Source: Lachnospiraceae bacterium
GTDB lineage: Bacteria > Bacillota > Clostridia > Lachnospirales > Lachnospiraceae
Assembly (NCBI GenBank): GCA_017938285.1
Contig: JAGBBW010000040.1
Span: forward strand, 1 to 36,164
Length of the DNA stretch: 36,164 nt
Direction of reading: 5' to 3'
Shown in pieces: positions 9,457-25,411 of the stretch. The notes below the pieces were generated by a model. The model was not told the DNA's origin. It did not search any database and was given only the letters and a program-made list of their open reading frames with translations. Position 1 is the first letter of the stretch. Each line of letters starts with the position of its first letter. The position numbers and the translations under genes were made by a program.

Positions 9457-10668
9457 TTATCCCACCAGTTTCCCGGTAATTTTTCCAATCTCTGTTTCAC
9501 CCAGACCAAGCATCTTAAAATACTGCTCCGTCGTTCCAAATTTCTTTCGGAACAACCGCAGAAACTCTTCCATAAACCATTCCCTTGGTGTTACAATATT
9601 CATGTCAATCTCCGGGAAATTTTTATGAACCAGCTCCAGACGTTCTCTGCCGTATTCCCTCGTCAGTACATAATTTTCAATAATATCACTGTCGTCCACA
9701 CCGGCATGTAAAAGCAGAATTGCTGACACCACACCTGTCCGGTCCTTTCCTGCTGTACAGTTGAACATCACACCACTTTCTGCATTTGCAATGGTTTTAA
9801 ATACCTTAGGCATACTCTTCGCACAGGCAATTGCCAGATAACTTACCGGCACAGCCTCCACCGATTCCGGTACTCCACTGCTTTCCTCCACCGGACAATT
9901 TATGTAATGAAACCCTTCCTTATTCGCAAATCCACTTGGTTTCTTCGTAGTATCTTTTTCTCCCCGCAGGTCGATTATTGTGGTAATTCCACGGTCTTTC
10001 AGCAGTTGAACATCCTCCTTTGATGGATAACACTGCACATCACTTCTCCATAAGGAATTTCTTCTGGTCGCCAGACCATCCTTTATCACATAACCGCCCA
10101 GTTCTCTTGTATTCTGGGTCGTTTTTAACATACTTTCTGTGATTGTCACCCAGAAACGTTTTGTGAAACTGCTATCCACCGGCACTTCTTTTTCAAACAC
10201 ACCGCCATTGGCAAGAATCGTCCGTTCACTGGCAATATTATTTCTGTCACAGGTAATCATGACTTTATGTAATCCAAGCTCTCTGCACTTTTCTAAATTC
10301 AGCCGCACCATTTCTTTCGCATAACCTTTTCTTCGTTCGTCCGGCCGCACAATGTAACCAAAGTGACCGCCCCAGGTACGCAGCACCGGATTTCCCAGAT
10401 GATGGCGCAGGTCTATCATGCCAACAATTTTATTATCGGAACTTCTTACTGCCAGAAATACATTGCCGGATACCCGTCCTTTTGGACAGGTGTCTGGATT
10501 TTCCATCAGGTTGACAGAGTCAATCCATACCTGTGCAGTTTCGCATTTCTCCAGAGTTCCACAGCCCGCAAAAGCATCTTCGTCCTTTGCGTCAAAAATT
10601 TCCTGCCGGAATTTCATAATGTCTTCGGCATATTCCATGGTTGGTTTTATCAGTCTGATTTCACCCAT
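9457..10668 (-). CDS. GNAT acetyltransferase fused to a tyrosine-phosphatase domain
   Basis: A 403-residue two-domain protein. Residues 1-178 are a GNAT fold (IRLIKPTMEYAEDI start, GYIVRPDERRKGYA acetyl-CoA loop around 104-117, then CDRNNIASERTILANGGVFE). Residues ~180-403 match the Y_phosphatase3 type of protein-tyrosine/lipid phosphatase: LWRSD near 207, IDLRGEKD near 232, and the P-loop CTAGKDRTG with nucleophile Cys304 and Arg310. The residue before the catalytic Cys, normally His, is Asn303. The GNAT half alone is like those annotated as acetyltransferases in Clostridia. The ORF is continuous through the junction, so the fusion is real in this sequence. What it modifies is unknown. Confidence 0.85.
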   Translation of the reverse strand: MGEIRLIKPTMEYAEDIMKFRQEIFDAKDEDAFAGCGTLEKCETAQVWIDSVNLMENPDTCPKGRVSGNVFLAVRSSDNKIVGMIDLRHHLGNPVLRTWGGHFGYIVRPDERRKGYAKEMVRLNLEKCRELGLHKVMITCDRNNIASERTILANGGVFEKEVPVDSSFTKRFWVTITESMLKTTQNTRELGGYVIKDGLATRRNSLWRSDVQCYPSKEDVQLLKDRGITTIIDLRGEKDTTKKPSGFANKEGFHYINCPVEESSGVPESVEAVPVSYLAIACAKSMPKVFKTIANAESGVMFNCTAGKDRTGVVSAILLLHAGVDDSDIIENYVLTREYGRERLELVHKNFPEIDMNIVTPREWFMEEFLRLFRKKFGTTEQYFKMLGLGETEIGKITGKLVG

Positions 10669-10733
10669 TTTAATTTTCCACCGCTTTCTTTATCCACTGT
10701 TATTTCCCAAAAACTGATTTCAAACCTGCTTCC

Positions 10734-11216
10734 TTACTCACACAAATCCGCATACTCAAACCGAATCATTTTCTTCAAGTCCACCGGACTCACTTCCACC
10801 TGATACCCGATTTTTCCACCGCTAAAGAAAATCGTTTCAAAATTCTCTGCACTGGCATCCACGGTCGTTGTAAAAAATTTCTTCATTCCAATCGGGGAAC
10901 AGCCGCCATGCACATAACCCGTCAGCGGCAAAAGCTCTTTGGACTTAATCATTTCAATGCTCTTTTCTCCCACCGCACTGGCTGCCTTTTTTAAATCCAG
11001 TTCCTGATTCACCGGAATAACAAACACAAAATTCTGCTTCGTTTTGCCTCCCACCGTTACCAGTGTTTTAAAGACCTGACTCGGATTCTGTCCCAGCACT
11101 GCTGCCACCTCTGTACCAACGGTCGTTCCGGATTCTACATAACAATAGCTCTCATACGGAACCTTTTTCTGGTCCAGCAGACGCATGACATTTGTTTTCT
11201 CCATTTTCTTTGCCAC
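10734..11216 (-). CDS. ybaK: YbaK/EbsC-type Cys-tRNA(Pro) deacylase
   Basis: A 160-residue cytosolic protein of the YbaK family, which hydrolyses Cys-tRNA(Pro) misacylated by prolyl-tRNA synthetase. Family marks are the N-terminal TNVMRLLDQKKVPYE, the VFKTLV strand with its conserved Lys, the LDLKKAA segment, and GYVHGGCSPIG (~residues 100-110), the conserved active-site loop. Length is typical. The start is a GTG at 11216, with an alternative ATG four codons later; neither has an ideal RBS. A TGGTATAAT extended -10 lies ~40 bp upstream. It is followed by the GNAT-phosphatase gene after 65 bp. Confidence 0.9.
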   Translation of the reverse strand: MAKKMEKTNVMRLLDQKKVPYESYCYVESGTTVGTEVAAVLGQNPSQVFKTLVTVGGKTKQNFVFVIPVNQELDLKKAASAVGEKSIEMIKSKELLPLTGYVHGGCSPIGMKKFFTTTVDASAENFETIFFSGGKIGYQVEVSPVDLKKMIRFEYADLCE

Positions 11217-11253
11217 TTTGGTTCACCATCCTCAACTCAAAATACTTTATCGC

Positions 11254-11259
11254 ATTATA
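11254..11259 (-). promoter_or_regulatory. Extended -10 element of the ybaK promoter
   Basis: Minus-strand TATAAT preceded by TGG, an extended -10; no good -35 is visible. It lies at the right distance before the ybaK start and inside the boundary of the transposase remnant. Confidence 0.45.
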
Positions 11260-11318
11260 CCACTAAACGAACAATATTTCCACCGTCAATTCCTTCACTT
11301 TTTTCACCATTTTATGCA

Positions 11319-11659
11319 TCAATGAAAGTGTCCTGTAACGATAACTGCATAATCTTTTTTTATGTGCTGTTTGACTTGGAAAAGATAATTGTCCATGATC
11401 ACCTGTTTATCTCCGAAAGCATGGAGGTTCTGGGAAAGACGTTTCCTTGTCCTCTTCAGGGTAATAATTTCTTTCAGTAAACGGCAATTTCACTTAAATA
11501 CATGCTGTTATCAACAAAGGTGCCATGAAGAATCTGTTGCACAAATTTATTCTTCGGACTTTTCAGGTCTTTTGAAATTTTCGAAGAATAATTTGATAAA
11601 TCCCTTTTAATTTCATACCCTAATCTGTTGTAATTAAATAAAAAAATATGAAAACTCAA
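11319..11659 (-). pseudogene. Decayed IS4-type transposase, N-terminal part
   Basis: Two overlapping minus-strand frames join to give one protein-like sequence. Frame one (11659-11474) contains SKDLKSPKNKFVQQILHGT and YLSEIAVY; a shift near 11476 leads into LKEIITLKRTRKRLSQNL, HAFGDKQVIMDNYL and KKDYAVIV, ending in a stop at 11319. This order resembles the N-terminal ~130 residues of IS4-family transposases of Firmicutes (conserved pattern K.F...ML.G....S..LSEIA..L.E..TLKKT..RLS.NL). The catalytic DDE core is absent. It is therefore frameshifted and 3'-truncated. Family assignment is by pattern recognition. Confidence 0.6.
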
Positions 11660-11687
11660 ATTATTTCATTTGAGTTTTCATATTTTT
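11642..11687. terminator. Long AT-rich bidirectional hairpin terminator
   Basis: A 19-bp perfect inverted repeat (AAAAATATGAAAACTCAAA and its complement) around an 8-nt loop, with A-run and T-run on the outer flanks, so it can terminate in both directions. It sits at the 5' edge of the transposase remnant and may have insulated the element from outside transcription. Confidence 0.75.
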
Positions 11688-11772
11688 ATCCATTTGTACC
11701 ACCCATACATGACACTTGCCTCTACTTCCCACAACCTCTTTTACCCAGTCTCTCCTTAACATATTACCCTGT

Positions 11773-11810
11773 AGAACGTCCCAAACGGATATATATGTCG
11801 GGGACGTTCT
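11773..11810. repeat. REP-like palindrome at the left edge of the AT-rich cassette
   Basis: AGAACGTCCC and GGGACGTTCT form a perfect 10-bp stem with an 18-nt loop that contains ATATATAT. GGGACGTTCT-type palindromes recall REP or insertion-element ends seen in Firmicutes (recollection, not a search). It lies 19 bp from the stop of the transglutaminase-like gene. The remainder of 11688-11828 shows no gene. Confidence 0.5.
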
Positions 11811-11828
11811 TCCAAAGTTTTTTCGCTA

Positions 11829-12578
11829 CTAACAAATTCTCTCTTCATGTCTCATTCTCATCTCTTTTTCCGATAACATATAATATCTAAACAACGTTTG
11901 TTTCGACAAATTGTATAAGTCTATCTCCCAAGTAATGTCAAAGTGCCACACTTCCCCGCCAAGCATCACCACATTCCATTCATGAGAAAACGCCATGCCT
12001 TTCTTTAATTCCTGACGTATAACCCAGTTATCTATACCTAGCTCGTCCAAAAACAATTTGAACCCTCTTGCAATTCCATCACATACAGCTTTTCCGTCAA
12101 GTAAAGAACCTAATACAGAATGTATTCGACATAAGATACGTCTATTCTCACTTTTTAACTCATCCGTAGCATATGATATATTTGCCACAAAATAATCATA
12201 CAAATATCTGATCTGTTGTTTTTTATCATTGCCACAATAAGTCTTAATATTTTCCGTAAGTGTAGCAACCTTCCTTGCAACGCGCCACTCAAATGATTTC
12301 TGTTCCTTTTCACTAAACACATAAGAGATACCCATTATAATAGCATTTCTCGAAAATACATACGTTGTATTTTCGAAATCAACATTAAAAATTTCCGGAT
12401 AATCTGCAAGAAGCAAAAAAAGGATTTTATCCATAAAATTTCTTTCTGTTTGAAGTTTGGGATTTCCAAATATTATTACACTTTTACGTTGTAAAATACC
12501 ATCATAAATCCTATCATAAATACTCTTTTGGAATTCATCTAATACTTCGTAAAATTTTTTTTCTTTTTCAACCTGCAC
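11829..12578 (-). CDS. Transglutaminase-like (papain-fold) protein
   Basis: A 249-residue protein with the Cys-His-Asp triad layout of the transglutaminase-like superfamily. Cys166 lies in DGKAVCDGIARGFKLFLDELGI, His199 in FSHEWNVVMLGGEVWH, and Asp214 in FDITWE. A helix with YLYDYFVANISYA (residues ~125-136) precedes the core, as in bacterial members that act as proteases or amidases. No signal peptide is seen, so it is probably cytosolic. The first ~115 residues do not resemble anything I know. It is the third gene of an AT-rich operon behind two zinc-ribbon proteins (gap 51 bp). The start is a GTG at 12578 with a weak RBS, so the true start could lie a little downstream. Confidence 0.75.
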   Translation of the reverse strand: MQVEKEKKFYEVLDEFQKSIYDRIYDGILQRKSVIIFGNPKLQTERNFMDKILFLLLADYPEIFNVDFENTTYVFSRNAIIMGISYVFSEKEQKSFEWRVARKVATLTENIKTYCGNDKKQQIRYLYDYFVANISYATDELKSENRRILCRIHSVLGSLLDGKAVCDGIARGFKLFLDELGIDNWVIRQELKKGMAFSHEWNVVMLGGEVWHFDITWEIDLYNLSKQTLFRYYMLSEKEMRMRHEERIC

Positions 12579-12629
12579 ACAATCCCATCCTATGTATAAA
12601 TAGTTATTTTCATTTCGCCTTATAATAAA

Positions 12630-14141
12630 TTATTCATCAAAAAAATTATAGCCTTTATCCGCGAACCGGCACACCCACTCATACGACGATTTTTTTCTTA
12701 CAATTTTCATGTCTTGATCAACTTCTGTATATGTAAAGCACGCATATGATATACCAAACAACCCTATTGCTCCAATTCCTACATAGGATAAAAAGCCTAT
12801 ATAAAGACTCAACCACAAAAGAAATTTTATTAGCAAAATACCTAAAATTGCCAACACGCACCACATACCGATAAATACTTTTACATTAAACAGTGACTCT
12901 TGATATTGTTTAGCAATCATTATGTCCTGACTATATTTATATTTTACCTTATTTAATAAAATTTCTTCATATCTTTTGTAATAATCTTCTGGCATATTTA
13001 ATTCCTTAACACTATCAAAAGCCCTCAAATAATCATCTGGTATGCTGCAGCTATCTATAATTTCTCTAGCTTTCTGTTCCCGTTCTCTATTAGCCTCCTT
13101 GATATTTCGTTCTCGTTCTTGTAGTTCCTGTTGCTTTCTTTCCTCCTCCATACGTTTTTTTTCACGTTCTATTACTTTCATCTCATACTTTTTAATTTCA
13201 CTAACACTCTTTTTCAACCAATGTAAAATTGACTCCTTATCAGTTTCTGAATAGTCAACAGCTTCTATTTCTTTAGTCATTTTTTCTAATTCATCTAAAT
13301 CCGAATATTTTCGAATTCTTTCCCATAATTCAATTTCCGTTTTATTATTAATACATAATAAACTTTCTGATTTATGTTTCTTTCCAAAGACATCGTCTGC
13401 TATACATTCTATACCACTCTGAATAATTTTCTTATCTAAATCCTCTAAATCCATCTGCGCAGCATCAAATATATTTCCCTCTTCTTCTGATGTTCTGCCC
13501 AATGCAATCGTTTGTGAATAGTACATGCCTTTATAAAATAATAAAATCCCCCTATCCTCATCTTTATCCATACCATTTTCACCTGTATAATGCCAACTGC
13601 CGAGATCCATCATAGCTTGAGGATATTTTTTATCTATCGCTAAATTCATATAACGATAAACTTTCATTTCATTACGTCCATATTTATTTGATATTGTTCC
13701 AAGATAGAACCTGCCCATAGCCCATAATGCTGCCGGGTCTCCATTTTCTGCCGCCTGTTCTACCATGCTGCAATATTTTTCCAATGTTTCGTTCGCAATA
13801 CTTGTTTTATTCTCTATGACGGTAAACAGGCCTACAATACTTATAATAGCCATTGCTACAGCATTAGGACATAGAGCACTTAACATCTTGTAATCTTTAT
13901 TCCCTATATGCCAATTTTCTTCTCCTATTGTATTTGTTATGTATACATATTCTGCACAGACATTTCCTTTTAATGCCATATCCAATATTTTCGAATATTG
14001 CTTCTGCTTTACATAAGTTCGAATTAAAATATCCTCTCTATCATAATTTTTACTTCTTATACCTTCCTTCATTTTTGCACCACAATAAGGGCAAAACCTC
14101 ATATTTTCATGTATAATTTTATTACATTTCGGACAATTCAT
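12630..14141 (-). CDS. Zinc-ribbon, SEL1-repeat, two-TM protein of unknown function
   Basis: A 503-residue multidomain protein. Residues 1-24 form a zinc ribbon (C3, C6, C17, C20; CPKC...CPYC). Residues ~125-215 contain SEL1/TPR-like repeats (NGDPAALWAMGRFYL, KYPQAMMDLGSWHYTG). Residues ~290-365 are a highly charged coiled coil rich in E, K, R and Q. Two adjacent transmembrane helices (~residues 412-462) are followed by a ~40-residue cytosolic tail. The layout suggests a membrane-anchored scaffold. It starts 10 bp after the stop of the preceding zinc-ribbon gene, so translation is likely coupled. Codon use is visibly more AT-rich than in the metabolic genes outside the island. I recognise the modules but not the whole protein. 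Confidence 0.75.
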   Translation of the reverse strand: MNCPKCNKIIHENMRFCPYCGAKMKEGIRSKNYDREDILIRTYVKQKQYSKILDMALKGNVCAEYVYITNTIGEENWHIGNKDYKMLSALCPNAVAMAIISIVGLFTVIENKTSIANETLEKYCSMVEQAAENGDPAALWAMGRFYLGTISNKYGRNEMKVYRYMNLAIDKKYPQAMMDLGSWHYTGENGMDKDEDRGILLFYKGMYYSQTIALGRTSEEEGNIFDAAQMDLEDLDKKIIQSGIECIADDVFGKKHKSESLLCINNKTEIELWERIRKYSDLDELEKMTKEIEAVDYSETDKESILHWLKKSVSEIKKYEMKVIEREKKRMEEERKQQELQERERNIKEANREREQKAREIIDSCSIPDDYLRAFDSVKELNMPEDYYKRYEEILLNKVKYKYSQDIMIAKQYQESLFNVKVFIGMWCVLAILGILLIKFLLWLSLYIGFLSYVGIGAIGLFGISYACFTYTEVDQDMKIVRKKSSYEWVCRFADKGYNFFDE

Positions 14142-14151
14142 ATTTATTTCC

Positions 14152-15957
14152 TCACTTCATGTTTTTTAACAATGTGCCTGCATCTTTTTCTCCAAAATAC
14201 TCTGCTATCTCTAAATATGGTTTCATAGTCGCTTCATCATATTCTAACACTTTTCCTGCAACATACTCTGTTCCAATGAATACAATAGCCTTAGGACACA
14301 TTCTCTTAAAAGCCGCTTTTATGTATTGCATTCCTTTTTCCCTTCTACATCCCTCATTAATATACCACATTCCCGCATGAAACAATGCATATGGAATTCC
14401 TTGCGCCGCCAGCAAGAAGACATTACTCATTATTTTTGTTTTTTCTACGATATTCGATGCTTTAGAGAATTCAAATTCATTTACTACATCCTTTGCATCT
14501 AAACATCCCTTTTCAAAAGCCTCCTCTAACTTTCCTAACATTTCATCCAGCTCTTTTGATTTCTTTTTGCTTCGAAAACTCTTCAACATTTGAAAATAAT
14601 ACTGAAACAGCACTTCCCTTCCATAATCCCCATATTCTTCTGTCATAATTCGAAAAGCTTCTGATGTCTCATTTTCCATTGCAAGTTTTTCTACTTTTTT
14701 CTGCGCTTGTAAAATCGCAGTATTAGCAAGAGCAGAAGCCACCTTATAAGCCAACTCTCTCTCCTTCTGTACATAAACCAGCTCCGGTCTTTCTGCATAG
14801 ATAAGATTATTTTCTTCCAAATTATCCATTAGTTTTTTACATTCACTTAACTTTTCCACCGAAGCACCCAAGCCCAATTTCTCTTCTTCGAGCTTATTGA
14901 GTAATTTTGCATCACGATAAGATAAAAAAGCTAATTGAACTTCTTCTTTAATACCACATATGGAAGCAAGTTCCAGTAGTTCCCTACCATAAACAGGATA
15001 CTTTTCTGAATATACACTTACATATGCAGCCAAATCAAATGGATTTTCATTCAACTTTCTAACCGCCGCATCCATATGATAAATTGTTATATTTTCATCA
15101 AGATTCACTAATTCCCAATAATCATATCTGAAATCACCTTGAGCATAATTATTATCAATTAAATACTTGCTTACTCTTTGAGCAGCACCTTCTATATGAT
15201 ATTGCCATGCTTCCTTTATTCTTTTTATAAACTCAGGCTGTTCCTTTATTTTTAGCTTTAATGCAATAATTTCTTTCGTATTTTTAGTTGCATTAATATT
15301 TCGTTTTGTAGCATTTCCAAATTCATTTACTATCGCTCCCCCAAGATTCAACAAATCAGCTTTCAATGAACCTATTATTGCACTTTTTATAGTTGTACCA
15401 CCACCAATCCAGCCTGGAACATATTCTGTTCTGGAACTGTCATTATAAGAATTCAGTTCGGCCCGAAGTTCCTCAAACTCAGAACAGCACTCCTCAAGGA
15501 ATTCACCCAACGAGTCTGCTTTACTAATCCAGTCATAGAAGTTTTCCAGATAATCTTCATATGTAATATTACAACCAAACGATTTTATAAACACCATGCT
15601 GGCGTAAACAACTGATTCATTAATTTCTTTTTGCACCGCTTTTCTTTCTTTTACAATATTATCAAATGAGGTTGCAGCAATCCAATCCTGTAGTCTAATC
15701 CATGTTTTGTTGAAAATTTTTTTAAAAAATATATATGATTTTCTTTTCAACAATGTTTTTTCCGAAAGAGTAATTTTATGTTCCCCAACATAGAAAGTCT
15801 CTTTTACCATATCTGCTTCATGATATTTTTCCCACATTTTATCAATGAGATTATCCAAAATCATCTGATTACTCAATAAAAGTTCTGTATTACAGTACGG
15901 ACATTCTAAACCAGAAAAATAGTTACTTATTTTACTTCCACATTCATAGCAATACAT
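14152..15957 (-). CDS. Zinc-ribbon protein with glycine-rich segment and helical repeats, unknown function
   Basis: A 601-residue protein. An N-terminal zinc ribbon (C3, C6, C19, C22) is followed by an alpha-helical region. A Gly/Ala-rich amphipathic stretch (~residues 183-215, GWIGGGTTIKSAIIGSLKADLL then LGGAIVNEFGNATKRN) comes next, then ~380 residues of helices with SEL1-like repeats near the C terminus (IPYALFHAGMWYINEG, CPKAIVFIGTEYVAG). No enzymatic motif was seen. I chose the ATG at 15957 because the zinc ribbon then starts at residue 3, AAGGAAG lies upstream, and the promoter at 16014-16042 would leave the upstream ATG (15999) with a leader of only ~8 nt. It heads the three-gene operon and is divergent from the XRE gene. 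Confidence 0.75.
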   Translation of the reverse strand: MYCYECGSKISNYFSGLECPYCNTELLLSNQMILDNLIDKMWEKYHEADMVKETFYVGEHKITLSEKTLLKRKSYIFFKKIFNKTWIRLQDWIAATSFDNIVKERKAVQKEINESVVYASMVFIKSFGCNITYEDYLENFYDWISKADSLGEFLEECCSEFEELRAELNSYNDSSRTEYVPGWIGGGTTIKSAIIGSLKADLLNLGGAIVNEFGNATKRNINATKNTKEIIALKLKIKEQPEFIKRIKEAWQYHIEGAAQRVSKYLIDNNYAQGDFRYDYWELVNLDENITIYHMDAAVRKLNENPFDLAAYVSVYSEKYPVYGRELLELASICGIKEEVQLAFLSYRDAKLLNKLEEEKLGLGASVEKLSECKKLMDNLEENNLIYAERPELVYVQKERELAYKVASALANTAILQAQKKVEKLAMENETSEAFRIMTEEYGDYGREVLFQYYFQMLKSFRSKKKSKELDEMLGKLEEAFEKGCLDAKDVVNEFEFSKASNIVEKTKIMSNVFLLAAQGIPYALFHAGMWYINEGCRREKGMQYIKAAFKRMCPKAIVFIGTEYVAGKVLEYDEATMKPYLEIAEYFGEKDAGTLLKNMK

Positions 15958-16013
15958 TATTTTCTCTTCCTTCCCTTCTTCGTTTGTCGTACATTCCAAG
16001 CAACTCCAGCATT

Positions 16014-16042
16014 ATTCTACAATTAATTATGACTTGTGTCAA
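16014..16042 (-). promoter_or_regulatory. Consensus promoter of the zinc-ribbon operon
   Basis: Minus-strand TTGACA (16037-16042), 17-bp spacer, TAGAAT (16014-16019). Start of transcription near 16007, about 50 nt before the chosen start codon of the first zinc-ribbon gene. Confidence 0.75.
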
Positions 16043-16051
16043 TCGCATTAC

Positions 16052-16062
16052 GCTATTATAGC
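16052..16062. promoter_or_regulatory. Palindromic operator candidate between divergent XRE gene and operon
   Basis: GCTAT-T-ATAGC, a perfect 11-bp palindrome, lies 10 bp upstream of the operon -35 and ~55 bp before the XRE start codon. Its position in the divergent intergenic region suits binding by the small XRE repressor. Confidence 0.45.
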
Positions 16063-16117
16063 AAGGTTTAATTTGACTATAAATCCCATTACAATTGTCG
16101 TATAAGGAGGATATGCA

Positions 16118-16345
16118 ATGAAACCTGAATACAAGAATTTGTACGAAAAATTTGGATTAAATGTAGTATATTATAGAAAGCGTTTAAAAATCACCCAACT
16201 GGAACTTGCTGAACTTGTCGATGTTGACAGAAGCCACATAAGTGCAATAGAACTGGGCAAAGTCGGTGTTTCCTTTGATGTAATATTTAAACTAGCAGAA
16301 GTTCTACAAATCACACCAAAAGACCTATTTGATTTCAGAGATTAA
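16118..16345 (+). CDS. Small XRE-family regulator divergent from the zinc-ribbon operon
   Basis: A 75-residue stand-alone helix-turn-helix protein (FGLNVVYYRKRLKITQLELAELVDVDRSHISAIELGKVGVSFDVIFKLAEVLQ) with no extra domain, the size of phage- and defence-associated Xre repressors. RBS AAGGAGGATATGCA precedes the ATG. It faces away from the three-gene operon with a 160-bp shared regulatory region that holds a palindrome and a consensus promoter. That is the typical arrangement for a dedicated regulator of the neighbouring cassette. It lies 175 bp from the decayed group II intron. The bases between (16346-16519) show no gene. Confidence 0.9.
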   Translation: MKPEYKNLYEKFGLNVVYYRKRLKITQLELAELVDVDRSHISAIELGKVGVSFDVIFKLAEVLQITPKDLFDFRD

Positions 16346-16519
16346 TGATTTTCTTACGGTATTATTTAATATACATAGAATACTATCACCATTTCATTCT
16401 CTCCACCCAAATCCATTTTTGAATTTTCTAGGACTGCTCATCCATTCTAGTGACACAATCCCTTATTGCTCACTACGCACCTCGTAAGCTCACACTTCCT
16501 TAGTCGCGTTACGCGGACA

Positions 16520-16605
16520 ATCGGGTAGGAGGTAGATAATTATTTTATCTACCGACCTCCCACACCACCGTACGTACCGTTCGGTATACGGCGGTTCTTT
16601 AGTTT
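16520..16605 (-). ncRNA. Group II intron domains V and VI (3' end of a decayed intron)
   Basis: Minus strand, 3' of the reverse transcriptase remnant. ACCGCCGTATACC pairs with GGT-ACGTACGGTGGT around a small loop (~16564-16597), the domain V hairpin with its typical bulge. A domain VI-like hairpin follows, made of GGGAGGTCGGTAGATAA and its partner TTATCTACCTCCTACCC (~16523-16561). The intron would end near 16520. Confidence 0.7.
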
Positions 16606-17350
16606 TCACATATTTTCAAAATAGAACTCTGTGAATGTAGGATAACCTAATTCACGGAGTTTCTTATTATTAAAGGCGGTTTGAAATATGAAATATCCAC
16701 TACAATACCAGTTTCCACTTCGCATATTGGCACATATCCATGCCTTTTCTTTTTTCTACTCCTAACCTCTTGAGTTCTTCGAACTTTGTTTTGACTTTCT
16801 TCCATTGTTTCCAATAGATTGCTCTTATTTTATGGCGTAGCCACTCGTCATTACTCCGCATCAGGCTTTTCATATCCGCCATTCCAAAGTAATTTACCCA
16901 TCCTCTAACAAACTGTGTCAGTTTCAATGCTCGGTATTCATTTCCCCATCCATTGCTTCTATCAATAAGTTCTCTGATTTTATCTTTCATCTTTGTTACT
17001 GATTTAGAGTGTACCCTAAGTCTGCATTTTCCCTTACATCTATAAAAACTATATCCAAGGTACTTGACTTTGCTGATGTGCGCCACGTTTGTTTTGGTAC
17101 AGTTGAATTTGAGGAATAGTTTTCCCTCAATGTATGGCACTATGTTTTCCAAGGTTCTTTCCGCACTTTTCTTGCCCTTGCAAAAAATCATACAATCATC
17201 TGCATAGCGAACAAATCTGTGTCCTCTACGTGTGAGTTCCTTATCCAACTCGTTCAGCATTATGTTACTTAAAAGTAGACTTAATGGTCCACCTTGTGGC
17301 ATACCGACCTCTGTCTTTTCAAACATTCCTCTGCTGATTACATATATTCT
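16606..17350 (-). pseudogene. ltrA: Group II intron reverse transcriptase/maturase, truncated and frameshifted
   Basis: The readable ORF (16700-17326) begins inside the palm domain: MPQGGPLS, the catalytic RYADDC motif, then the thumb and maturase X domain (FVRGWVNYFGMADMKSLMRSNDEWLRHKIRAIYWKQWK). In-frame residues IYVISRG continue upstream to ~17350, after which similarity stops, so the fingers and first RT blocks are missing. At 16700 an in-frame TAG appears. The neighbouring frame continues with YCSGYFIFQTAFNNKKLREL and TFTEFYFENM to a stop at 16606, which fits the normal maturase C terminus, so a frameshift lies there. The order RT, domain V, domain VI suggests a class C-like intron. Not functional. 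Confidence 0.85.
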
Positions 17351-17369
17351 GAGGATATATGTGCAGGAT

Positions 17370-17510
17370 ATTTATATACCGGCATATTCTGTGCTTCTTC
17401 CAACACTCTGCGACCTTGTTCAGGCGGCAGTTGAAAAATTAGCGGCGGAACAGAACTTTGCTCACAGAACACTTCTGCGGCAGGTTCCAATGGAACACAT
17501 CGTTTCATAA
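17370..17510 (+). pseudogene. 3' stump of an unidentified plus-strand gene
   Basis: An open frame beginning where the intron RT similarity stops encodes ~46 residues (AYSVLLPTLCDLVQAAVEKL ... RTLLRQVPMEHIVS) and ends at TAA 17508-17510, followed by hairpins and six T's. Its codon use is like the GC-richer genes outside the island. It looks like the C terminus of a gene cut by the insertion or its decay. I do not recognise the family. Confidence 0.3.
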
Positions 17511-17524
17511 TCCAGCCTCTCCTA

Positions 17525-17557
17525 TGATAGTTCTACTATCAGCATATGCTGTTTTTT
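17525..17557 (+). terminator. Possible terminator after the gene stump
   Basis: TGATAG/CTATCA (6 bp) and CAGC-ATAT-GCTG hairpins followed by TTTTTT on the plus strand, 15 bp after the stop of the stump. 17558-17665 shows no gene. Confidence 0.45.
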
Positions 17558-17665
17558 CACTACTGTTCATTCGTACCTCATAAACAGTAACGTTTTTCAC
17601 TTTTGTATATTTTATTCCCCACCGGATATCCTATCAGCATAATCATGTCGCTTGCGGAGGTAAAA

Positions 17666-18523
17666 TTGCATCCTATGGGATATTTTAAAGGCTGGTATTT
17701 CAAATGCTGTACCGATGACAAAACAATTGCGTTCATTCCCGCATATCATTACTGTGACAATAAAAAGTCCGCATCATTGCAAATTATAACTAATGATGCG
17801 GCTTTTCATATACCATTTCAGACAATCAAATATAACGACAAACCATTACACGTCAAACTTGGAGATTGCAGATTTACAGAACGAGGAATCTCTCTGAATT
17901 ATCAAAGCAACCGCCTTAAAGTTGAAGGCATCCTCCGCTTTCAACCTCTTTCTCCCATTCGTTATGACATTATGGGGCCCTTTACGCTCGTCCCATTCCT
18001 GCAATGCAGACACAGTGTTTACAGCATGACCCATAAAATCAACGGTCAACTCATGGTAAACAACCGGAACTATACCTTTCACAACGGCGTCGGTTATATC
18101 GAAGGGGACCGGGGTTACTCCTTTCCAAAACGATATATTTGGACACAGTGCTGCTTTGAACATGGCTCTTTAATGCTGTCTGTAGCCGATATCCCTATGT
18201 TAGGATTTCATTTCAACGGCATTATCGGTGTTGTTCTGTTGAATGGAAAGGAGTACCGCATCGCCACTTATCTTGGGGCAAGGATAAAACACATTGGAGC
18301 AAATACCATCACTGTCAAGCAAGGCGATTATACACTAACCGCACGACTGCAAAAAAAGAATGCACAGCCACTTTTGGCTCCTTCCAATGGCAAAATGTGC
18401 AGAACCATTCACGAAAGTGCCGTCTGCCAAACATATTATCGTTTCTCTTATAAGCAGAAGGTATTGTGCGAATTTATCAGCGACAAAGCCAGCTTCGAGT
18501 TTGAATTCACCGCCACTCGTTAA
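17666..18523 (+). CDS. Tocopherol-cyclase-family protein
   Basis: A protein of about 285 residues that matches the bacterial tocopherol cyclase family (calycin/lipocalin-like beta-rich fold). Marks are the N-terminal MGYFKGWYFKC, AFIPAYHY, the central GPFTLVPFLQCRHSVYSM, and GYIEGDRGYSFPKRYIWTQC. Plant members cyclise tocopherol precursors; in anaerobic Firmicutes the substrate is unknown and the name should be read as a fold assignment. I chose TTG 17666 because GGAGG lies 5 nt upstream and the family begins with HPM.. or similar; ATG 17645 has no RBS. It is monocistronic on the plus strand and converges with the remnant and thiC. Confidence 0.75.
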   Translation: MHPMGYFKGWYFKCCTDDKTIAFIPAYHYCDNKKSASLQIITNDAAFHIPFQTIKYNDKPLHVKLGDCRFTERGISLNYQSNRLKVEGILRFQPLSPIRYDIMGPFTLVPFLQCRHSVYSMTHKINGQLMVNNRNYTFHNGVGYIEGDRGYSFPKRYIWTQCCFEHGSLMLSVADIPMLGFHFNGIIGVVLLNGKEYRIATYLGARIKHIGANTITVKQGDYTLTARLQKKNAQPLLAPSNGKMCRTIHESAVCQTYYRFSYKQKVLCEFISDKASFEFEFTATR

Positions 18524-18644
18524 ACGGGTGGCGCGACTTCAAAGGAACTTATTCTCTGATATAAATATTTTGAAAGCTATACATCTATCTCCTGCGCTTC
18601 TTGATTCCATTTGCTCTTTAAACAGTTTAAAAACTCCTGCTTAT

Positions 18645-18775
18645 TCATGCCGTCTTCCTCCTGCTTTCAAGTTCCAAAGTCACATGGTTAATTCCGTGTT
18701 CCTTCAATTCTTCTCTGATTTTTCTTTGAAATATGAGCGTTCTCCTCTGTTCCCATATTCATTGTCACGTAATTG
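18645..18775 (-). pseudogene. C-terminal remnant of a cation diffusion facilitator, frameshifted
   Basis: On the minus strand, one frame reads NEYGNRGERSYFKEK and, after loss of one A in an A-run near 18722, another reads IREELKEHGINHVTLELES to a TGA at 18645. Joined, this matches the C terminus of CDF cation efflux transporters. A second short ORF (MNKQEFLNCLKSKW..., 23 codons) begins in the overlapping ATGA at 18648. The remnant starts right after the thiC stop. No transporter membrane part remains. Confidence 0.5.
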
Positions 18776-18792
18776 TTATGACCGTCCATACT

Positions 18793-20106
18793 TTATTTTT
18801 CCGTACAGAATTCTACTTTCCTGCCTTCCAGAATCATATTGGTTGTCCGCACGGCACACATTTTTCCGCACATCGAGCAGGTATGACGGTCTGATGGCGG
18901 CGTACTTTCAAAATATGCCCTTGCCTTTTCTTCGTCCAGTGCCAGTCCAAACATTGCTTCCCAGTCCACCTTATGACGCGCTTCCGCCATGGCATTGTCC
19001 CGCTCTCTGGCATGTGGAACTCCCTTCGCAATATCTGCTGCATGGGCGGCAATCCGGCTGGCAATGATACCTTCCTTTACATCATTCAAATCCGGAAGAC
19101 GTAAGTGCTCCGCCGGAGTAACATAGCAGAGGAAATCCGCACCGCTTGCCGCCGCAATAGCACCACCAATAGCAGAAGTAATATGGTCATATCCCGGTGC
19201 AATGTCTGTTACCAGCGGACCGAGCACATAAAATGGGGCGTTGTGACAGATTCTCTTCTGCAGCTTCATATTTGCTTCAATTTCATTCATTGCCATATGA
19301 CCCGGCCCCTCCACCATCACCTGGACATCCTTTGCCCAGGCACGTTCGGTCAATGCCCCCAGCTCAATCAGCTCCGCAATCTGTCCGGCATCCGTGCTGT
19401 CATCAATACACCCCGGCCGGAGGGCATCGCCCAGACTGATGGTAACATCATACTCCCGCAAAATTTCCAGCACTTCATCATAGTGCTCATAAAACGGATT
19501 TTCATTTCCCGTCATCATCATCCAGGCAAACAACAGGGAACCGCCCCGTGACACAATGTTCATTTTTCTCTTGTCACGCATAAAAGTTTCTACCGTTCTG
19601 CGGTTGATTCCGGCATGAATCGTCATAAAATCCACACCTTCTTCTGCATGTGCCCGGACCACCCGAAGGAAATCCTCTGCCGTGATTTCCAGTAAATCTT
19701 TTTCCAGATATCCAATGGCATCATACATCGGTACCGTGCCAATCATAGCAGGTGATTTTGCAATCAGTTCCTTGCGGAAGGTATTTGTCTTGCCATAATT
19801 ACTCAGATCCATAATGGCCTCTGCACCAAACTTTAATGCCATATCTACCTTCTGCATTTCCATCTCATAATTGTTGCAGTCTCCTGAAATACCAAGATTT
19901 ACATTTATCTTGGTCCTCAGTCCCATACCAATGCCTTCCGCAGAAATGGAAGTATGCCGGATATTACACGGAATTGCTACAACTCCCTGTGCTACCAGTT
20001 CCCGGAGTTTTTCCGGCTCCATATCTTCTTTCTTTGCCACTAGTTCCATTTCCGGTGTCAGAATTCCCTTTTTCGCTGCTTCCATCTGTGTTTTGTACTT
20101 TCTCAT
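18793..20106 (-). CDS. thiC: Phosphomethylpyrimidine synthase ThiC
   Basis: A 437-residue radical-SAM enzyme that rearranges aminoimidazole ribotide into hydroxymethylpyrimidine phosphate in thiamine synthesis. Recognisable blocks are [81 protein letters not shown] and [11 protein letters not shown]. The C terminus carries the atypical ThiC [4Fe-4S] motif [11 protein letters not shown] (CX2CX4C). Length is normal for the shorter clostridial ThiC lacking the N-terminal extension. It is the last gene of the thi operon, 43 bp after thiD. RBS GGAG precedes the ATG. Expression should fall with thiamine pyrophosphate through the riboswitch at 25300. Confidence 0.97.
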
Positions 20107-20149
20107 ATTCTGTCACTCCATTTCAATACTCATTTCACATTTAATCCCA

Positions 20150-20962
20150 TCACGACACTTTATTTTCCCCTGCAAATCGTCCTGTCAGAGCAAATCCATG
20201 ATTCAGCGGTCCGCTTCCCTTTCCTAAATCAAGTCCCGTCTCCAAAGCCCCGGAAATATACTCCTTTGCTCTCCACACGGATTCCTCCAGGTTAAATCCT
20301 TTCGCCAGATTCGATGCTATGGCACTGGACAGGGTACAGCCCGTCCCGTGGGTATTCGGATTGTTGATCCGTTTTCCTTCAAACCAGACAAACGCACTGT
20401 CTGCATACAGCAGGTCGTTGGCATCATTGACACTGTGGCCACCTTTTAACAATACGGAACATCTATAGGTATCACCAATATATTTTGCTGCTGTAATCAT
20501 ATCCTCTTTCCCATAAATGGACCTTCCCGACAAAACCTCTGCTTCCGGAATGTTAGGCGTGACAAGCACTGCCAGCGGAAGAAGTTTTTCCTTCAGGATT
20601 GTTACTGCCTCTGTCTGCATAAGTCTCGAACCACTGGTTGCTGCCATCACAGGGTCAACTACTACATTTTTTGCTTTGTACTGCTTCAGTTTTTCCGCAA
20701 TCACTGTTATCAGCTCTGCCGAAGAAACCATCCCTATTTTTACCGCATCCGGGTAAATATCTTCAAATACGGCAGCCATCTGTTTTGCTAAAAATTCCGG
20801 CGGCACCTCCAGAATTCCGGTTAATCCCATTGTATTCTGCGCCGTCAGGGCGGTTATCGCGCTCATGGCATAAACACCATTCATTGTCATGGTTTTTATA
20901 TCCTCCTGAATACCTGCGCCACCGCTGGAATCACTTCCGGCAATTGATAATGCTGTTTTCAT
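20150..20962 (-). CDS. thiD: Hydroxymethylpyrimidine/phosphomethylpyrimidine kinase ThiD
   Basis: A 270-residue ribokinase-fold enzyme that phosphorylates HMP and then HMP-P to HMP-PP. Marks are ALSIAGSDSSGGAGIQEDIKTM at the N terminus, VVDPVM (~110), VTPNIPEAEVLSG (~138), and the C-terminal NTHGTGCTLSSAIASNLAKG anion-hole/ATP loop. I place the start at ATG 20962, with GGAG six bases upstream; a GTG four codons earlier is less likely. The start overlaps the end of the upstream TenI-ThiE gene by ~32 bp, indicating translational coupling within the operon. Confidence 0.95.
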   Translation of the reverse strand: MKTALSIAGSDSSGGAGIQEDIKTMTMNGVYAMSAITALTAQNTMGLTGILEVPPEFLAKQMAAVFEDIYPDAVKIGMVSSAELITVIAEKLKQYKAKNVVVDPVMAATSGSRLMQTEAVTILKEKLLPLAVLVTPNIPEAEVLSGRSIYGKEDMITAAKYIGDTYRCSVLLKGGHSVNDANDLLYADSAFVWFEGKRINNPNTHGTGCTLSSAIASNLAKGFNLEESVWRAKEYISGALETGLDLGKGSGPLNHGFALTGRFAGENKVS

Positions 20963-22217
20963 TGCTTTCTCCACTTCTTTCTACCAGCAGCTTTGCCTGT
21001 TTCCTAAGCTTTCCTGCTGCCTCTTCCACATTTTCCGCTGCAAAAATCGCAGACACCACAGCAATTCCGCTCATTCCTCCGCCACGCAGTTTCTCCATAT
21101 TGGCTTCGGTGATTCCGCCAATGGCAACCGCCGGAATTGAAACCGAAGTACAAATCTTGCGTAGCTGCTCTGTCGTAATCCGGATGGCATCCTTTTTGGT
21201 CGGCGACGGAAATACGGCACCCACCCCAAGATAATCTGCTCCGGCTTTTTCTGCTGCCTGTGCCTGCTCCACTGTTTTAGCTGTTGCCCCGATGATAAAC
21301 TCTGTTCCGGCCCTGGCCCGGATTTCTGCCACCGGCTGGTCTTCGATTCCCACATGGACACCGTCTGCCCCACTTTTTATGGCGACCTCCACATTGTCAT
21401 TGATTATCAGTGGAACATGGTAACGGTGACACAGTTTCCTTGCCTGTATCGCTTCCTCCAGAAATGCTTCCTCGTCCATCCCTTTTTCCCTGAGCTGAAT
21501 CATGGTAGCACCGCCACGCAAGGCCTCTTCCACCTGCTCCAATAAGCTCTGTCTGCCCGTCCAGGAACGGTCTGTTACCGCATACAGCAGCAGGCATTCC
21601 CTGTTAAACTCTGGTTTTCTGTAATTCTTCATAAACTCTTCCACACTCCCACACTGCATCAGACCGCTCATCACACAGGCCCCCGCTGCTCCGGTTTCCC
21701 GTACCATCCCAATATTTTCTGCGGTGATTCCTCCGATAGCATACACCGGAATCCGGACGGCTTTGCATACTTTCTGCAAAAATCCGGTTCCCCGTCCCGG
21801 CAGCCCCTTCTTACAATCCGTGGCAAAAATATGTCCGGCAACCACATAAGTACAGCCAAGCAGCTCCGCCTCTCTTGCCTCTTCTTCGGAATGACAGGAC
21901 GCGCCAAGCACGGAGAATCCTTTTTTCTTTTCCTCTGACAGGCTTCGTAAAACTGGCAGGGGCAGATGAATCGCACCTGCTTTCAATTCCAGCGCCACAT
22001 CCACAAAACTATGTAACATACATGGTACCTGATATTTTTCACAAATGGACAGTACCTGCTTTGCCAGCTCCCTGTACTCTTCCTCTGTCAAATCTTTTTC
22101 CCTGAGAATAATTCCCGCCGGATGCATTTTTGCAATTTCTTCTATACGGTCCAAAAAACGTTCTCCGCAAAGTTTCCGGTTCGTTACACAAATCATATCA
22201 GACATACAAATAATCAT
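20931..22217 (-). CDS. thiE: TenI-like domain fused to thiamine phosphate synthase ThiE
   Basis: A 428-residue protein with two tandem TIM-barrel thiamine phosphate synthase-family domains. Residues ~8-200 resemble TenI, the thiazole tautomerase branch (MICVTNRKLC, ILREKDLTEEEY, VLGASCHSEEEA, AIGGITAENI). Residues ~208-418 are a full ThiE (YAVTDRSWTG, GGATMIQLREKG, LIINDNVEVAIKSGADGVHVG, YLGVGAVFPSPTKKDA, AIGGITEANMEKL), which couples HMP-PP with thiazole phosphate. TenI and ThiE act on the same thiazole intermediate, so a fusion could channel it. Starts at 22217, 22205 or 22196 are all possible since the region overlaps the end of thiH (TGATATG). Confidence 0.92.
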   Translation of the reverse strand: MIICMSDMICVTNRKLCGERFLDRIEEIAKMHPAGIILREKDLTEEEYRELAKQVLSICEKYQVPCMLHSFVDVALELKAGAIHLPLPVLRSLSEEKKKGFSVLGASCHSEEEAREAELLGCTYVVAGHIFATDCKKGLPGRGTGFLQKVCKAVRIPVYAIGGITAENIGMVRETGAAGACVMSGLMQCGSVEEFMKNYRKPEFNRECLLLYAVTDRSWTGRQSLLEQVEEALRGGATMIQLREKGMDEEAFLEEAIQARKLCHRYHVPLIINDNVEVAIKSGADGVHVGIEDQPVAEIRARAGTEFIIGATAKTVEQAQAAEKAGADYLGVGAVFPSPTKKDAIRITTEQLRKICTSVSIPAVAIGGITEANMEKLRGGGMSGIAVVSAIFAAENVEEAAGKLRKQAKLLVERSGESNENSIINCRK

Positions 22218-23451
22218 TCAGAACCGGCTGCAGACCCTCAGCGGCGATGTCCTGATACATAGTTTCCAGATTCCGGTCGTCATTGATTTCAAACTGCTCA
22301 TCTCCCTGCATACCGTCTGACTCCTTTCCGGTATATTTACTCTCATGGTCACCGATTCCGGTGGATACTCCGGCAGATACCTTGGTTGCCGCAATTTTTA
22401 CAATACCATTCCGGAACGTTTCACTTTCTCTGGAGGATACGGTGATTCCCACAAACGGAAGAAAAATCCGGTAAGCACAGAGTATCTGGCACAACTGCTT
22501 TTCCCCAACATCCATAGGACTTATGTTGTTATTATTCACAATCGGCCGGAGTCTTGGACAGGAAAGGGAAAATTCCGCCGAAGGATATTTCCGCTGTAAA
22601 TAATACACATGAAGCGCACTTGCCAGCGCATCTTTCCGGAAATCCGAAAGTCCCAGCAGTGCCGAAAACGCCACACCACGCATGCCGCCCATCAGCGCCC
22701 GCTCCTGGGCATCAAACCGGTACGGCCATACCCGCTTGTGTCCCAGAAGATGAAGCTTCTCATAGGCTTCCACATCATAGGTTTCCTGAAACACCGTCAC
22801 ATAATCTGCACCGCATTCATGCAGATACCGGTACTCCTCCGTATTGACCGGATAAATCTCCAGCCCCACCATGCGGAAATATTTCCTTGCCAGCTTACAG
22901 GCCTCTCCAATATATGCCACATCACTCTGCGCCCGGCTTTCCCCGGTCAGAATCAGAATTTCCTCCATGCCGCTGTCCGCAATGACCTTCATTTCCTGCT
23001 CTACCTGTTCCATGGTCAGCTTCATCCGCTTAATATGGTTGTAGCAGTTAAAGCCACAATATACGCAGTAATTTTCACAGTAATTTGCTATGTACAGCGG
23101 TGTAAACAAATACACCGTATTTCCAAAATGTCTGCTGGTTTCCTGCCTTGCCCGCTGTGCCATCTGTTCCAGAAAAGGTTCTGCTGCCGGAGAAAGCAGC
23201 GCCTTAAAATCTTCCACAGAGCAGGTTTTGTGTTCCAATGCTGCTTTTACTTCCTTTGCTGTATAATTGCTGTCATCATACGTCTTCCACTGTTCCATGA
23301 CCTTTTCACAAATATCAGACGAAATCTGCTCCATCCCCGGTAAATATTCCATACAGTTTTTCCGGAAGGATGGGTCTGTTTCCAGCCGGTGTTTTTTTTC
23401 CAGAGCTTCCGGAGATAAAAATTCTGAATCTATAAAAAACTGATTTTCCAT
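22198..23451 (-). CDS. thiH: 2-iminoacetate synthase ThiH
   Basis: A 417-residue radical-SAM tyrosine lyase that cleaves tyrosine to dehydroglycine (2-iminoacetate) and p-cresol for thiazole assembly. The cluster motif is CENYCVYC (C125, C129, C132; CX3CX2C), preceded by TPLYIAN. Further family blocks are ILTGESR (~166), SALLGLSDF (~267), FSLSCPRLRP, and the C-terminal STGIGDH. Use of ThiH rather than glycine oxidase ThiO fits an anaerobe. It lies 21 bp after thiG and its stop overlaps the start of the thiE fusion by 20 bp. Confidence 0.96.
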   Translation of the reverse strand: MENQFFIDSEFLSPEALEKKHRLETDPSFRKNCMEYLPGMEQISSDICEKVMEQWKTYDDSNYTAKEVKAALEHKTCSVEDFKALLSPAAEPFLEQMAQRARQETSRHFGNTVYLFTPLYIANYCENYCVYCGFNCYNHIKRMKLTMEQVEQEMKVIADSGMEEILILTGESRAQSDVAYIGEACKLARKYFRMVGLEIYPVNTEEYRYLHECGADYVTVFQETYDVEAYEKLHLLGHKRVWPYRFDAQERALMGGMRGVAFSALLGLSDFRKDALASALHVYYLQRKYPSAEFSLSCPRLRPIVNNNNISPMDVGEKQLCQILCAYRIFLPFVGITVSSRESETFRNGIVKIAATKVSAGVSTGIGDHESKYTGKESDGMQGDEQFEINDDRNLETMYQDIAAEGLQPVLNDYLYV

Positions 23452-23472
23452 GTCTGTGTACTTCTCCTCATA

Positions 23473-24246
23473 CTAATCATGTAAAAAACCTGTCAGTGGG
23501 TCCGAAGCAGACGCTCCCCTGGTCAGCACTCTTCCCAGCCCCGCCAGATAGGCTGCCCTGCCTGCTTCAATTGCCTGACGGAAGGCGGCTGCCATCAACG
23601 GAAGATTTCCTGCTGTGGCAAGTGCTGTATTTGCCATAATGGCTGCCGCCCCCATCTCCATTGCCTCGCATGCCTGGGACGGTCTTCCAATACCTGCATC
23701 CACAATAATCGGCAGGTCAATTTCATCAATCAGAATCTGGATAAACTCCTTTGTTGCCAGTCCCTTATTAGACCCAATCGGGGAAGCTAACGGCATAACC
23801 GCTGCCGCTCCGGCATTCACTAAATCTCTTGCCACATTCAAATCCGGATACATATATGGCATAACCACAAACCCTTCCTTTGCAAGAATCTCCGTTGCCC
23901 GTATCGTCTCCGCATTATCCGGCAGCAGATATTTGGAGTCCCGCATAATTTCCACTTTGACAAAATTTCCACATCCCAGTTCTCTTGCCAGACGGGCAAT
24001 ACGCACCGCCTCTTCTGCGTTTCGTGCGCCGGAGGTATTCGGAAGTAACGTAACTCCTTCCGGTATGTAGTCCAGAATATTTTCCTGATCCTTCGTATTT
24101 GCCCGGCGCACTGCCAGCGTAATGATTTCCGCTCCGGCATCCTTTACTGCTGCTTCAATCAGACTCAGGGAATATTTCCCGGAACCTAAGATAAAACGGG
24201 AGGTAAACTCATGACCTCCGATGATTAATTTGTCCTTTTCCTGCAT
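23473..24246 (-). CDS. thiG: Thiazole synthase ThiG
   Basis: A 257-residue TIM-barrel enzyme that combines deoxyxylulose phosphate, dehydroglycine and the ThiS thiocarboxylate into the thiazole ring. Marks are [16 protein letters not shown] at the start, LAVRRAN (~45), [21 protein letters not shown] with the Schiff-base lysine (~99), [13 protein letters not shown], and [23 protein letters not shown]. The length is that of normal ThiG, without a fused ThiS. RBS AAGGAAAG precedes the ATG. It lies between thiF (32 bp) and thiH (21 bp). Confidence 0.97.
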
Positions 24247-24278
24247 AATTACTTTCCTTTCTTTTTCAGATTAAAGTG

Positions 24279-24944
24279 CTATTCTTCCAGTTTCTTCTCT
24301 CCTGCCAGAATCCGGAGTACTGCATGGGCCTGATGTGCCGCACAAAGCATTACCCTGGAAGCAACCAGTCCCATACCATCTGCCACATCACTGACTCCAT
24401 CCCCACACAGGCAGAATTTTTCTGTCACCTGCCTTGTTCGGATGGTATTGGCCGGTCCCAGTCCTGCCATGCCCGATGCCGCCACCAGATATTTTTCCGG
24501 AAACAATTCCAGCACAGCATTTACAAGCATTGCTTTTTCTTCTGCAGCATCAAATGCCTCACAGATAATATCTGCCTCCCGCAGCAGTTCTCTGCAATTT
24601 TTTTCTGTAACTTTCCCTGTGTAATACTTCACTTCCGTATAAGGCGAAATCTCCTTCAGATTTTCTGCCAGCGCTTCCGTCTTGTAACATCCTACCTGGA
24701 AAGCCTTATACTGCTGACGATGTAAATTGGAAATATCCACCTTATCAAAATCCAGCAGAATCAGCCGCCCAACTCCTGCTCTTGCCAGAGCAATGGCAAT
24801 ATTGGAACCAAGACCTCCAAGTCCACAGACTGCCACCACTGCTTTTTCCAATTTCTTCAGTAACTCCTCCCCCTGACGCTCCGCCAGCGTGCGTCTCCAT
24901 TCCTCTTTCGTTGGAATACCCTGTGTCTTTACGGGGCTGTTCAT
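24279..24944 (-). CDS. thiF: ThiS adenylyltransferase ThiF
   Basis: A 221-residue E1-like enzyme that adenylates the C-terminal glycine of ThiS. The nucleotide-binding loop is VCGLGGLGSNIAIALARAGVG, followed by LLDFDKVDISNLHRQ with the conserved Asp, Asn and Arg-type positions. It belongs to the shorter clostridial ThiF type and lacks the CXXC zinc pairs of the E. coli enzyme. I chose ATG 24944, one base after the thiS stop, because GGAGGTGGCTGAT places an RBS inside the end of thiS; the longer reading from 24971 would overlap thiS by 26 bp. Confidence 0.93.
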   Translation of the reverse strand: MNSPVKTQGIPTKEEWRRTLAERQGEELLKKLEKAVVAVCGLGGLGSNIAIALARAGVGRLILLDFDKVDISNLHRQQYKAFQVGCYKTEALAENLKEISPYTEVKYYTGKVTEKNCRELLREADIICEAFDAAEEKAMLVNAVLELFPEKYLVAASGMAGLGPANTIRTRQVTEKFCLCGDGVSDVADGMGLVASRVMLCAAHQAHAVLRILAGEKKLEE

Positions 24945-24945
24945 A

Positions 24946-25140
24946 TCAGCCACCTCCCACAAAGCTGACAACTTCCACGGTATCTTCCTCCCGCAGCACT
25001 GTACTGTCGTACTGCGCCTTTGGAATTATTTCTCCATTCCTCTCCACGGCAATCCGCTTTGGGTCATAACTGGTGGAAACCAGATATTCCGTCAGTGTTT
25101 TCCCGGCGGCATCCACTAAAGTTCCATTGATTTTTACCAT
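24946..25140 (-). CDS. thiS: Sulfur carrier protein ThiS
   Basis: A 64-residue ubiquitin-like protein ending in Gly-Gly-Gly (VSFVGGG), the tail that ThiF adenylates and that then carries the thiocarboxylate sulfur to ThiG. The core IAVERNGEIIPKAQYDSTVLREEDTVEVV matches the family. The start at 25140 is set by GGGAGG 7 nt upstream; the open frame extends nine codons further without RBS. It is the first gene of the thi operon, 92 bp after the riboswitch terminator. Confidence 0.95.
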   Translation of the reverse strand: MVKINGTLVDAAGKTLTEYLVSTSYDPKRIAVERNGEIIPKAQYDSTVLREEDTVEVVSFVGGG

Positions 25141-25264: not shown

Positions 25265-25299
25265 TGGAACTATACACGAATACTCGCTGCTCGCGCTCT

Positions 25300-25397: not shown

Positions 25398-25411
25398 TTA
25401 ATTGTATCTTT

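Follow-up and report, generated by a model that had tools for sequence, protein, structure and literature searches.

An accessory gene cassette with a divergent XRE regulator and two zinc-ribbon proteins in a Lachnospiraceae bacterium

The stretch of Lachnospiraceae bacterium DNA analysed here, hereafter the window (36,164 nucleotides, one entire contig, G000:C14, of a 3.2 Mb genome in 154 contigs with a completeness of 86.7%), carries three co-directional minus-strand genes, termed A, B, and C, and a divergent XRE-type regulator gene, termed X, within a segment that is absent from a congener. A divergent XRE gene and a second gene encoding a zinc ribbon recur beside members of an unnamed protein family to which A probably belongs. 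We tentatively read the four genes as an XRE-repressed, horizontally acquired, membrane-directed accessory operon, in which the zinc ribbons would pair A with B and C would be an added effector, a reading we hold to be plausible though far from assured.

The ORF list and the sequence bear out the compact layout proposed in the initial annotation, with A (14152–15957, minus strand, 601 aa), B (12630–14141, minus strand, 503 aa), and C (11829–12578, minus strand, 249 aa) separated by intergenic gaps of 10 bp (A–B) and 51 bp (B–C), and with X (16118–16345, plus strand, 75 aa), an XRE/Cro-type regulator matching Pfam HTH_3 (E = 5.5e-14), diverging from A. The best start for A is the ATG at 15957, giving 601 aa, which is preferred over a TTG at 15999, with the ribosome site judged by eye. 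The unit is AT-rich, as had been stated, with a G+C content of 30.5–34.4% over 12–16 kb of the window compared with mostly 42–49% elsewhere. The divergent intergenic region between A and X spans 160 bp (15958–16117) and contains a promoter-like site directed towards A (TTGACA-17-TAGAAT, 16042–16014), the highest scoring within 11200–17600, in a scan that was no richer than shuffled sequences (27 sites versus 28.2). An imperfect inverted repeat (16012–16024/16093–16105) overlaps this promoter-like site upstream of A with one of its arms. Downstream of C lies a terminator-like hairpin of 20 pairs, three of them G-C (11642–11687, minus strand), the scan for such hairpins returning 2 sites versus 2.1 in shuffled sequences. 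A perfect 10-bp inverted repeat, AGAACGTCCC / GGGACGTTCT, is found at 11773–11810, between C and this hairpin.

The segment that is missing from the congener G202 spans 11216–18787 of the window. The G202 sequences matching window positions 9506–11215 and 18788–25426 are separated by only 120 bp, and the window therefore holds ~7.6 kb extra; in a second congener, G201, the contig ends within 30 bases of the G202 junction point. The site lies between a ybaK-like gene and thiC, both named by reading, and besides the four cassette genes the segment contains the remnant of a group II intron and a tocopherol-cyclase-like gene. We favour insertion here, rather than loss in G202, because of the low G+C content and the intron remnant, with the direction resting on one draft congener. 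The absence of the segment from G202 agrees with the earlier description of a mobile-looking island, and the dead group II intron proposed on one side of the cassette is present at 16525–17326 (minus strand), with matches to Rfam RF00029 (16525–16596) and to RVT_1 and GIIM (16703–17326) in surroundings where the frames are stop-broken. The dead transposase proposed on the other side (11217–11660) is unconfirmed: the minus frames are stop-broken, but neither the DNA nor one 52-aa piece matched anything in the plasmid collection. The tocopherol-cyclase-like gene (17603–18523, Pfam E = 2.9e-8), which shares the segment with the cassette, had no match in three congeners.

Protein A begins with a zinc ribbon (residues 3–22; C3, C6, C19, and C22, with x12 between the pairs), followed by a beta hairpin, helices, a Gly motif, a further helix, and TPR-like helices. 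The Gly/Ala-rich segment ascribed to A is real, with a motif comprising W183, G185–187, G196, A200, and N204, and with P306 posed among the TPR-like helices. No Pfam cut-off is passed by A (best E = 0.19), and its tail appears weakly Sel1-like by eye, with no match at all to Pfam Sel1. The SEL1/TPR-like helices claimed for both A and B stood only in part, Sel1 being weak in B (15.1 bits against a Pfam cut-off of 30.7, E = 0.035; best PDB Sel1 chain E = 0.011) and absent from the Pfam matches of A. The structure predicted for A is of low quality, with a mean pLDDT of 56.8, and the order of secondary structure elements after the zinc ribbon, in a model that shares the alignment, resembles that of L111, a family member discussed below. 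Direct searches with A returned its own match only among 200 genomes of the host's own family, its own match and two genomes with a zinc-ribbon match among 392 genomes of the order (E up to 0.01), no matches in plasmids, phages, and viral contigs, and nine stretches in genome contigs, none of them confirmed. A phmmer search of the ORFs of 13 loci matched A to L122 (E = 2.4e-7), which may rest on the zinc ribbon, the alignment not having been inspected.

The Gly-rich stretch of A resembled another motif, and a pattern search on this basis gave 14 viral loci, one of which, L076, encodes a protein of ~730 residues, with a BLASTP E value of only 0.013 against A. Relatives of the L076 protein occur on three phage-labelled scaffolds, two Acinetobacter plasmids, and in 7 of 196 genomes of the order, and a search of 215 pattern stretches with a three-row alignment placed the family in 13 genome contigs, with hosts assigned to Clostridium, Anaerovibrio, Pseudoflavonifractor, Oscillibacter, Oscillospiraceae (two), Flavonifractor, Clostridiales, Intestinibacter, Eisenbergiella, Mediterraneibacter, and Lachnospiraceae (two). 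A first family profile built without A scored A at 8.3 bits in hmmsearch, below one of 2000 shuffles, and gave no match in the genome of A itself; hhalign of A against the family gave an E value of 0.00058 but a probability of 29%, with 261 columns in order. A profile of 23 proteins, again without A, gave A 22.2 bits compared with 9.8 for the best of 2000 shuffles, and 22.3 bits once the first 30 residues of A were removed; a profile of 35 proteins without A gave 20.0 bits compared with 10.9 for the best of 2000 shuffles. Additionally, an alignment of 14 rows, A itself among them, has seven invariant columns (G, G, G, G, A, N, P), all of which A keeps (G185, G186, G187, G196, A200, N204, and P306). 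Judged on these alignments, A is probably a far-diverged member of an unnamed helical GGGFG-motif family, an assignment that is likely rather than certain. A is a far outlier, searches started from A or from L076 having failed to link the two. The collinear core and the invariant residues are common to A and the family, as is the divergent XRE gene of some members; however, TTIKS replaces FGxxG after GGG in A, and A has no membrane helix of its own, whereas many family members carry C-terminal membrane helices.

The family set comprises 36 genes including A, with L115 dropped as near-identical to L113, and eight of these encode an N-terminal zinc ribbon (A, L106, L121, L122, L123, L156, L157, and L159). 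Its distribution is patchy, a profile that includes A finding the family in 17 of 392 genomes of the order (own included) and in 15 of 174 genera. Named examples, WP_107010041 and WP_333656889, are both annotated as hypothetical protein. With 24 of the 36 members scanned, no core model of the family was found in Pfam, NCBIfam, PHROGs, or PADLOC; each matched library family covers at most four members, the repeated ones being zinc ribbons or unnamed PHROGs, and the best match of L122 falls on its zinc ribbon. Matches to single members include YARHG (2.3e-20), bPH_3 (1.2e-6), and LeoBC (4.9e-6), given irrespective of their position within the protein. The model of L111 (mean pLDDT 74.8, pTM 0.53) runs from a beta hairpin through helices and a low-quality Gly-motif stretch to a long helix and TPR-like pairs, with no significant match to this fold in PDB or BFVD and a best E value of only 0.034 for the family profile against PDB sequences. 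On an Acinetobacter pittii plasmid (L090:1–6692), a family gene lies 1.6 kb from a CBASS-like set of nucleotidyltransferase, ThiF, JAB, and SAVED genes.

Among the 35 family genes preceded by 400 bp of sequence or more, a set that excludes L163, nine have an XRE gene diverging from them within 700 bp upstream, compared with 6 of 367 controls, namely the other ORFs of at least 250 aa in the same loci and in the transglutaminase loci (Fisher P = 3.5e-7, or 2.4e-6 without the window). These P values are not exact, given that the family genes are related to one another and that the same loci supplied the XRE profile. An earlier count that kept L115 gave 9 of 27 versus 6 of 314. One of the six control positives is the head gene of a cluster holding a family gene (L123), and two others, adjacent to family genes in L105 and L120, were read as WYL-type regulators. 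No divergent XRE gene is found at 26 of the 35 family genes, and four of the nine XRE-linked genes are of Oscillospiraceae type.

This XRE linkage, together with a patchy distribution that lies partly on plasmids and phage-labelled scaffolds, is also consistent with an anti-phage or toxin-type system in which A, with or without C, would harm the cell or phage once XRE control is lifted. The plasmid copy 1.6 kb from the CBASS-like set fits such a role, as do the single weak PADLOC matches among the 24 scanned members (five families with one member each, the best being LeoBC at E = 4.9e-6), but among A, B, and C the best PADLOC 2023 match is that of A to PtuB at E = 0.0078, with none for B and C, and no toxin or antitoxin model is matched above its cut-off, X missing all those for antitoxins (best Y4mF, 46.9 versus 71.65). 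Furthermore, no trend towards defence genes appears among the neighbour matches listed: for the 24 neighbourhoods, the 25 of 154 PADLOC families listed are mostly regulators, with single matches such as those to an oligonucleotide cyclase, E1-E2, PD-T4-6, and PDC-S03, of which the first two fit L090. An anti-phage or toxin-type role is somewhat unlikely in our estimation. The neighbour scan covered 127 of 129 listed neighbours in 24 loci, one very long and one short protein being left out, and 25 of 113 Pfam families were listed. Pfam LGT was matched by three of the 127 neighbours, with Lgt-type genes near family genes at L123:7453–8735, L088:5330–6645, and L103:6812–7687, preceded in L123 and L088 by a gene for a small Cys-rich protein.

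Matching zinc ribbons had been claimed for A and B, and the cysteine pairs are indeed found in both, with a spacing of x12 in A and x10 in B (C3, C6, C17, and C20), the latter just over the Pfam cut-off for Zn_Ribbon_1 (25.7 versus 25). B continues into weak Sel1-like helices, a coiled coil judged by eye, and C-terminal membrane helices, with hydrophobic stretches at residues 420–438 and 444–468 in addition to one at 91–109. No full-length relative of B was found in genomes of the genus and order, plasmids, phages, or viral contigs. Four genomes of the genus gave its own match only, 17 of 392 genomes of the order (own included) gave matches with E up to 0.001, mostly to the N-terminal zinc ribbon or Sel1, plasmids and phages gave nothing, and 13 stretches in viral contigs were not confirmed; two short matches to the B C-terminus, in L010 and L012, lie in stop-containing frames. 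That the C half of B is the C half of one-chain family members is not claimed, because B, whilst the best of 1001 against L103 (14.8 versus 10.8 bits), comes only 86th when scored with a profile made from nine C halves.

A second zinc-ribbon gene lies downstream of four of the eight zinc-ribbon cores (L121, L157, L159, and the window) compared with none of the 28 others (Fisher P = 0.0012), and of three of seven when the window is left out (P = 0.0053); these counts are small, with a partner defined as an N-terminal zinc ribbon within the next two co-directional genes at gaps of up to 300 bp, and with genes near contig ends scored as partnerless. The order in L121, XRE(−), core(+), partner(+), is that of the window. 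By reading and hydropathy, the partner in L157 combines a coiled coil with two membrane helices and an additional domain, the L121 partner has one strong membrane stretch, and those in L159 have none, and the homology signal between B and the partner zinc-ribbon proteins is not above local shuffles. L123 is arranged differently, with genes for an XRE protein, for a zinc-ribbon protein with RCC1 repeats, for a Cys-rich protein, and for an Lgt homologue ahead of the core. An XRE gene, a zinc-ribbon core, and a zinc-ribbon partner are therefore supported, on small numbers, as a recurrent two- to three-gene pattern. The recurrence of the XRE–core and core–partner layouts, along with the short intergenic gaps (10 and 51 bp) and the similar zinc ribbons of A and B, speaks against a chance assembly of unrelated accessory genes without joint function at a hot spot between the ybaK-like gene and thiC. 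Such an assembly, in favour of which stand the intron remnant and the tocopherol-cyclase-like gene in the same segment and the failure to find the A-B-C-XRE set anywhere else, we hold to be distinctly unlikely.

On its match to PDB 9crn (residues 5–223, E = 3.4e-9), C is a transglutaminase/papain-like fold protein, with the Cys-His-Asp triad proposed at C166, H199, and D214 aligning with the Cys, His, and Asp of this solved relative. Whilst the catalytic residues and the fold region are like those of 9crn and the NCBIfam MAG6410 family, C falls below the Pfam and NCBIfam cut-offs (Transglut_core, 16.6 bits versus 23), lacks a C-terminal region of ~90 residues that its nearest relatives have, and has no visible signal peptide. 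C has many, scattered relatives (in 172 of 392 genomes of the order, own included, E up to 1e-8), and none of 20 C-relative neighbourhoods holds an A-family gene, these being 20 of the 21 best places besides C itself, with G500 left out and some contigs short. Among the 35 other family loci, a clear C-type protein is found only in L102, a distant one (E = 3.4e-6) whose start looks signal-like, a match of a short L121 ORF (E = 0.0035) looking like chance. As C is seldom beside relatives of A and common elsewhere, it is best described as a loose accessory in the cassette. The co-occurrence expected of the four genes thus holds for the XRE linkage and the zinc-ribbon pair and fails for C, and the notion of a single conserved four-gene system is not upheld. 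A single protein encoded at L018:1501–2967 combines, as read, a zinc ribbon with a hydrophobic stretch and a transglutaminase-type domain, and matches C with a phmmer E value of 6e-10.

Two of the 20 C-relative neighbourhoods, L055 and L059, have consecutive kinase, vWA, and PP2C genes, with L059 additionally encoding TerD and a zinc-ribbon plus BspA-repeat protein, all by reading. The clusters, in which BspA-repeat and transglutaminase-type genes join the kinase, vWA, and PP2C genes, span L059:45–7977 and L055:8571–14469, with TerD in L059 only. By analogy with these TerY-P type operons, the cassette could be a stress-signalling add-on in which C, like some of its cytosolic relatives, would act as a regulated protease linked to the sensing of metals or stress, and A and B would provide scaffolds. 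Both operons share with the cassette a transglutaminase-type gene lacking a signal peptide, L059 also has zinc-ribbon proteins alongside, and in a tree C falls outside the starred clade to which the genome's own paralogue belongs, but the branch is long and its placement in the tree poorly resolved. Moreover, in contrast to these operons, the four cassette proteins have no Pfam match to a kinase, PP2C phosphatase, vWA, or TerD, the other window genes being read by eye with 16703–17326 and 17603–18520 scanned. We consider this stress-signalling reading improbable.

The initial suggestion that no named system has this composition agrees with our searches, which gave no clear PADLOC match and no description of the set or the family in the literature covered, short of most subscription papers and including PMC3710099 in part; the portion of that paper covered links transglutaminase, zinc ribbon, and Sel1 to HEPN domains. 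The weight first given to the Gly segment and to the matching ribbons of A and B was also justified. In the XRE-repressed accessory operon that we prefer, X would repress the A-B-C operon and let go under stress or invasion. The core of A would comprise a beta hairpin, a helical domain, an invariant Gly hinge, a small-residue helix, and a TPR-like array, with the zinc ribbons pairing A with B and B holding the complex at the membrane. Once X has let go, the Gly-hinged core may exert its effect on the membrane or serve as a scaffold, and C, a cysteine-protease-fold effector added in this lineage, may cut or cross-link a protein target. No fold match was found pointing to membrane action or defence. 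A more specific variant, which we think unlikely, is an XRE-controlled membrane-acting conflict module, in which the Gly hinge and small-residue helix would rearrange into the membrane alongside exchangeable, ribbon-paired partners and a transglutaminase-fold effector; were this true, the zinc ribbons would serve as a plug by which partners are exchanged.

Whichever role the cassette has, we found no core model of the GGGFG-motif family in four curated libraries and no solved relative, yet the family is present in diverse Clostridia, Anaerovibrio, and Acinetobacter plasmids. A divergent XRE gene is far commoner at its genes than at other genes of the same loci, and the paired-zinc-ribbon pattern provides a handle for finding more such loci.
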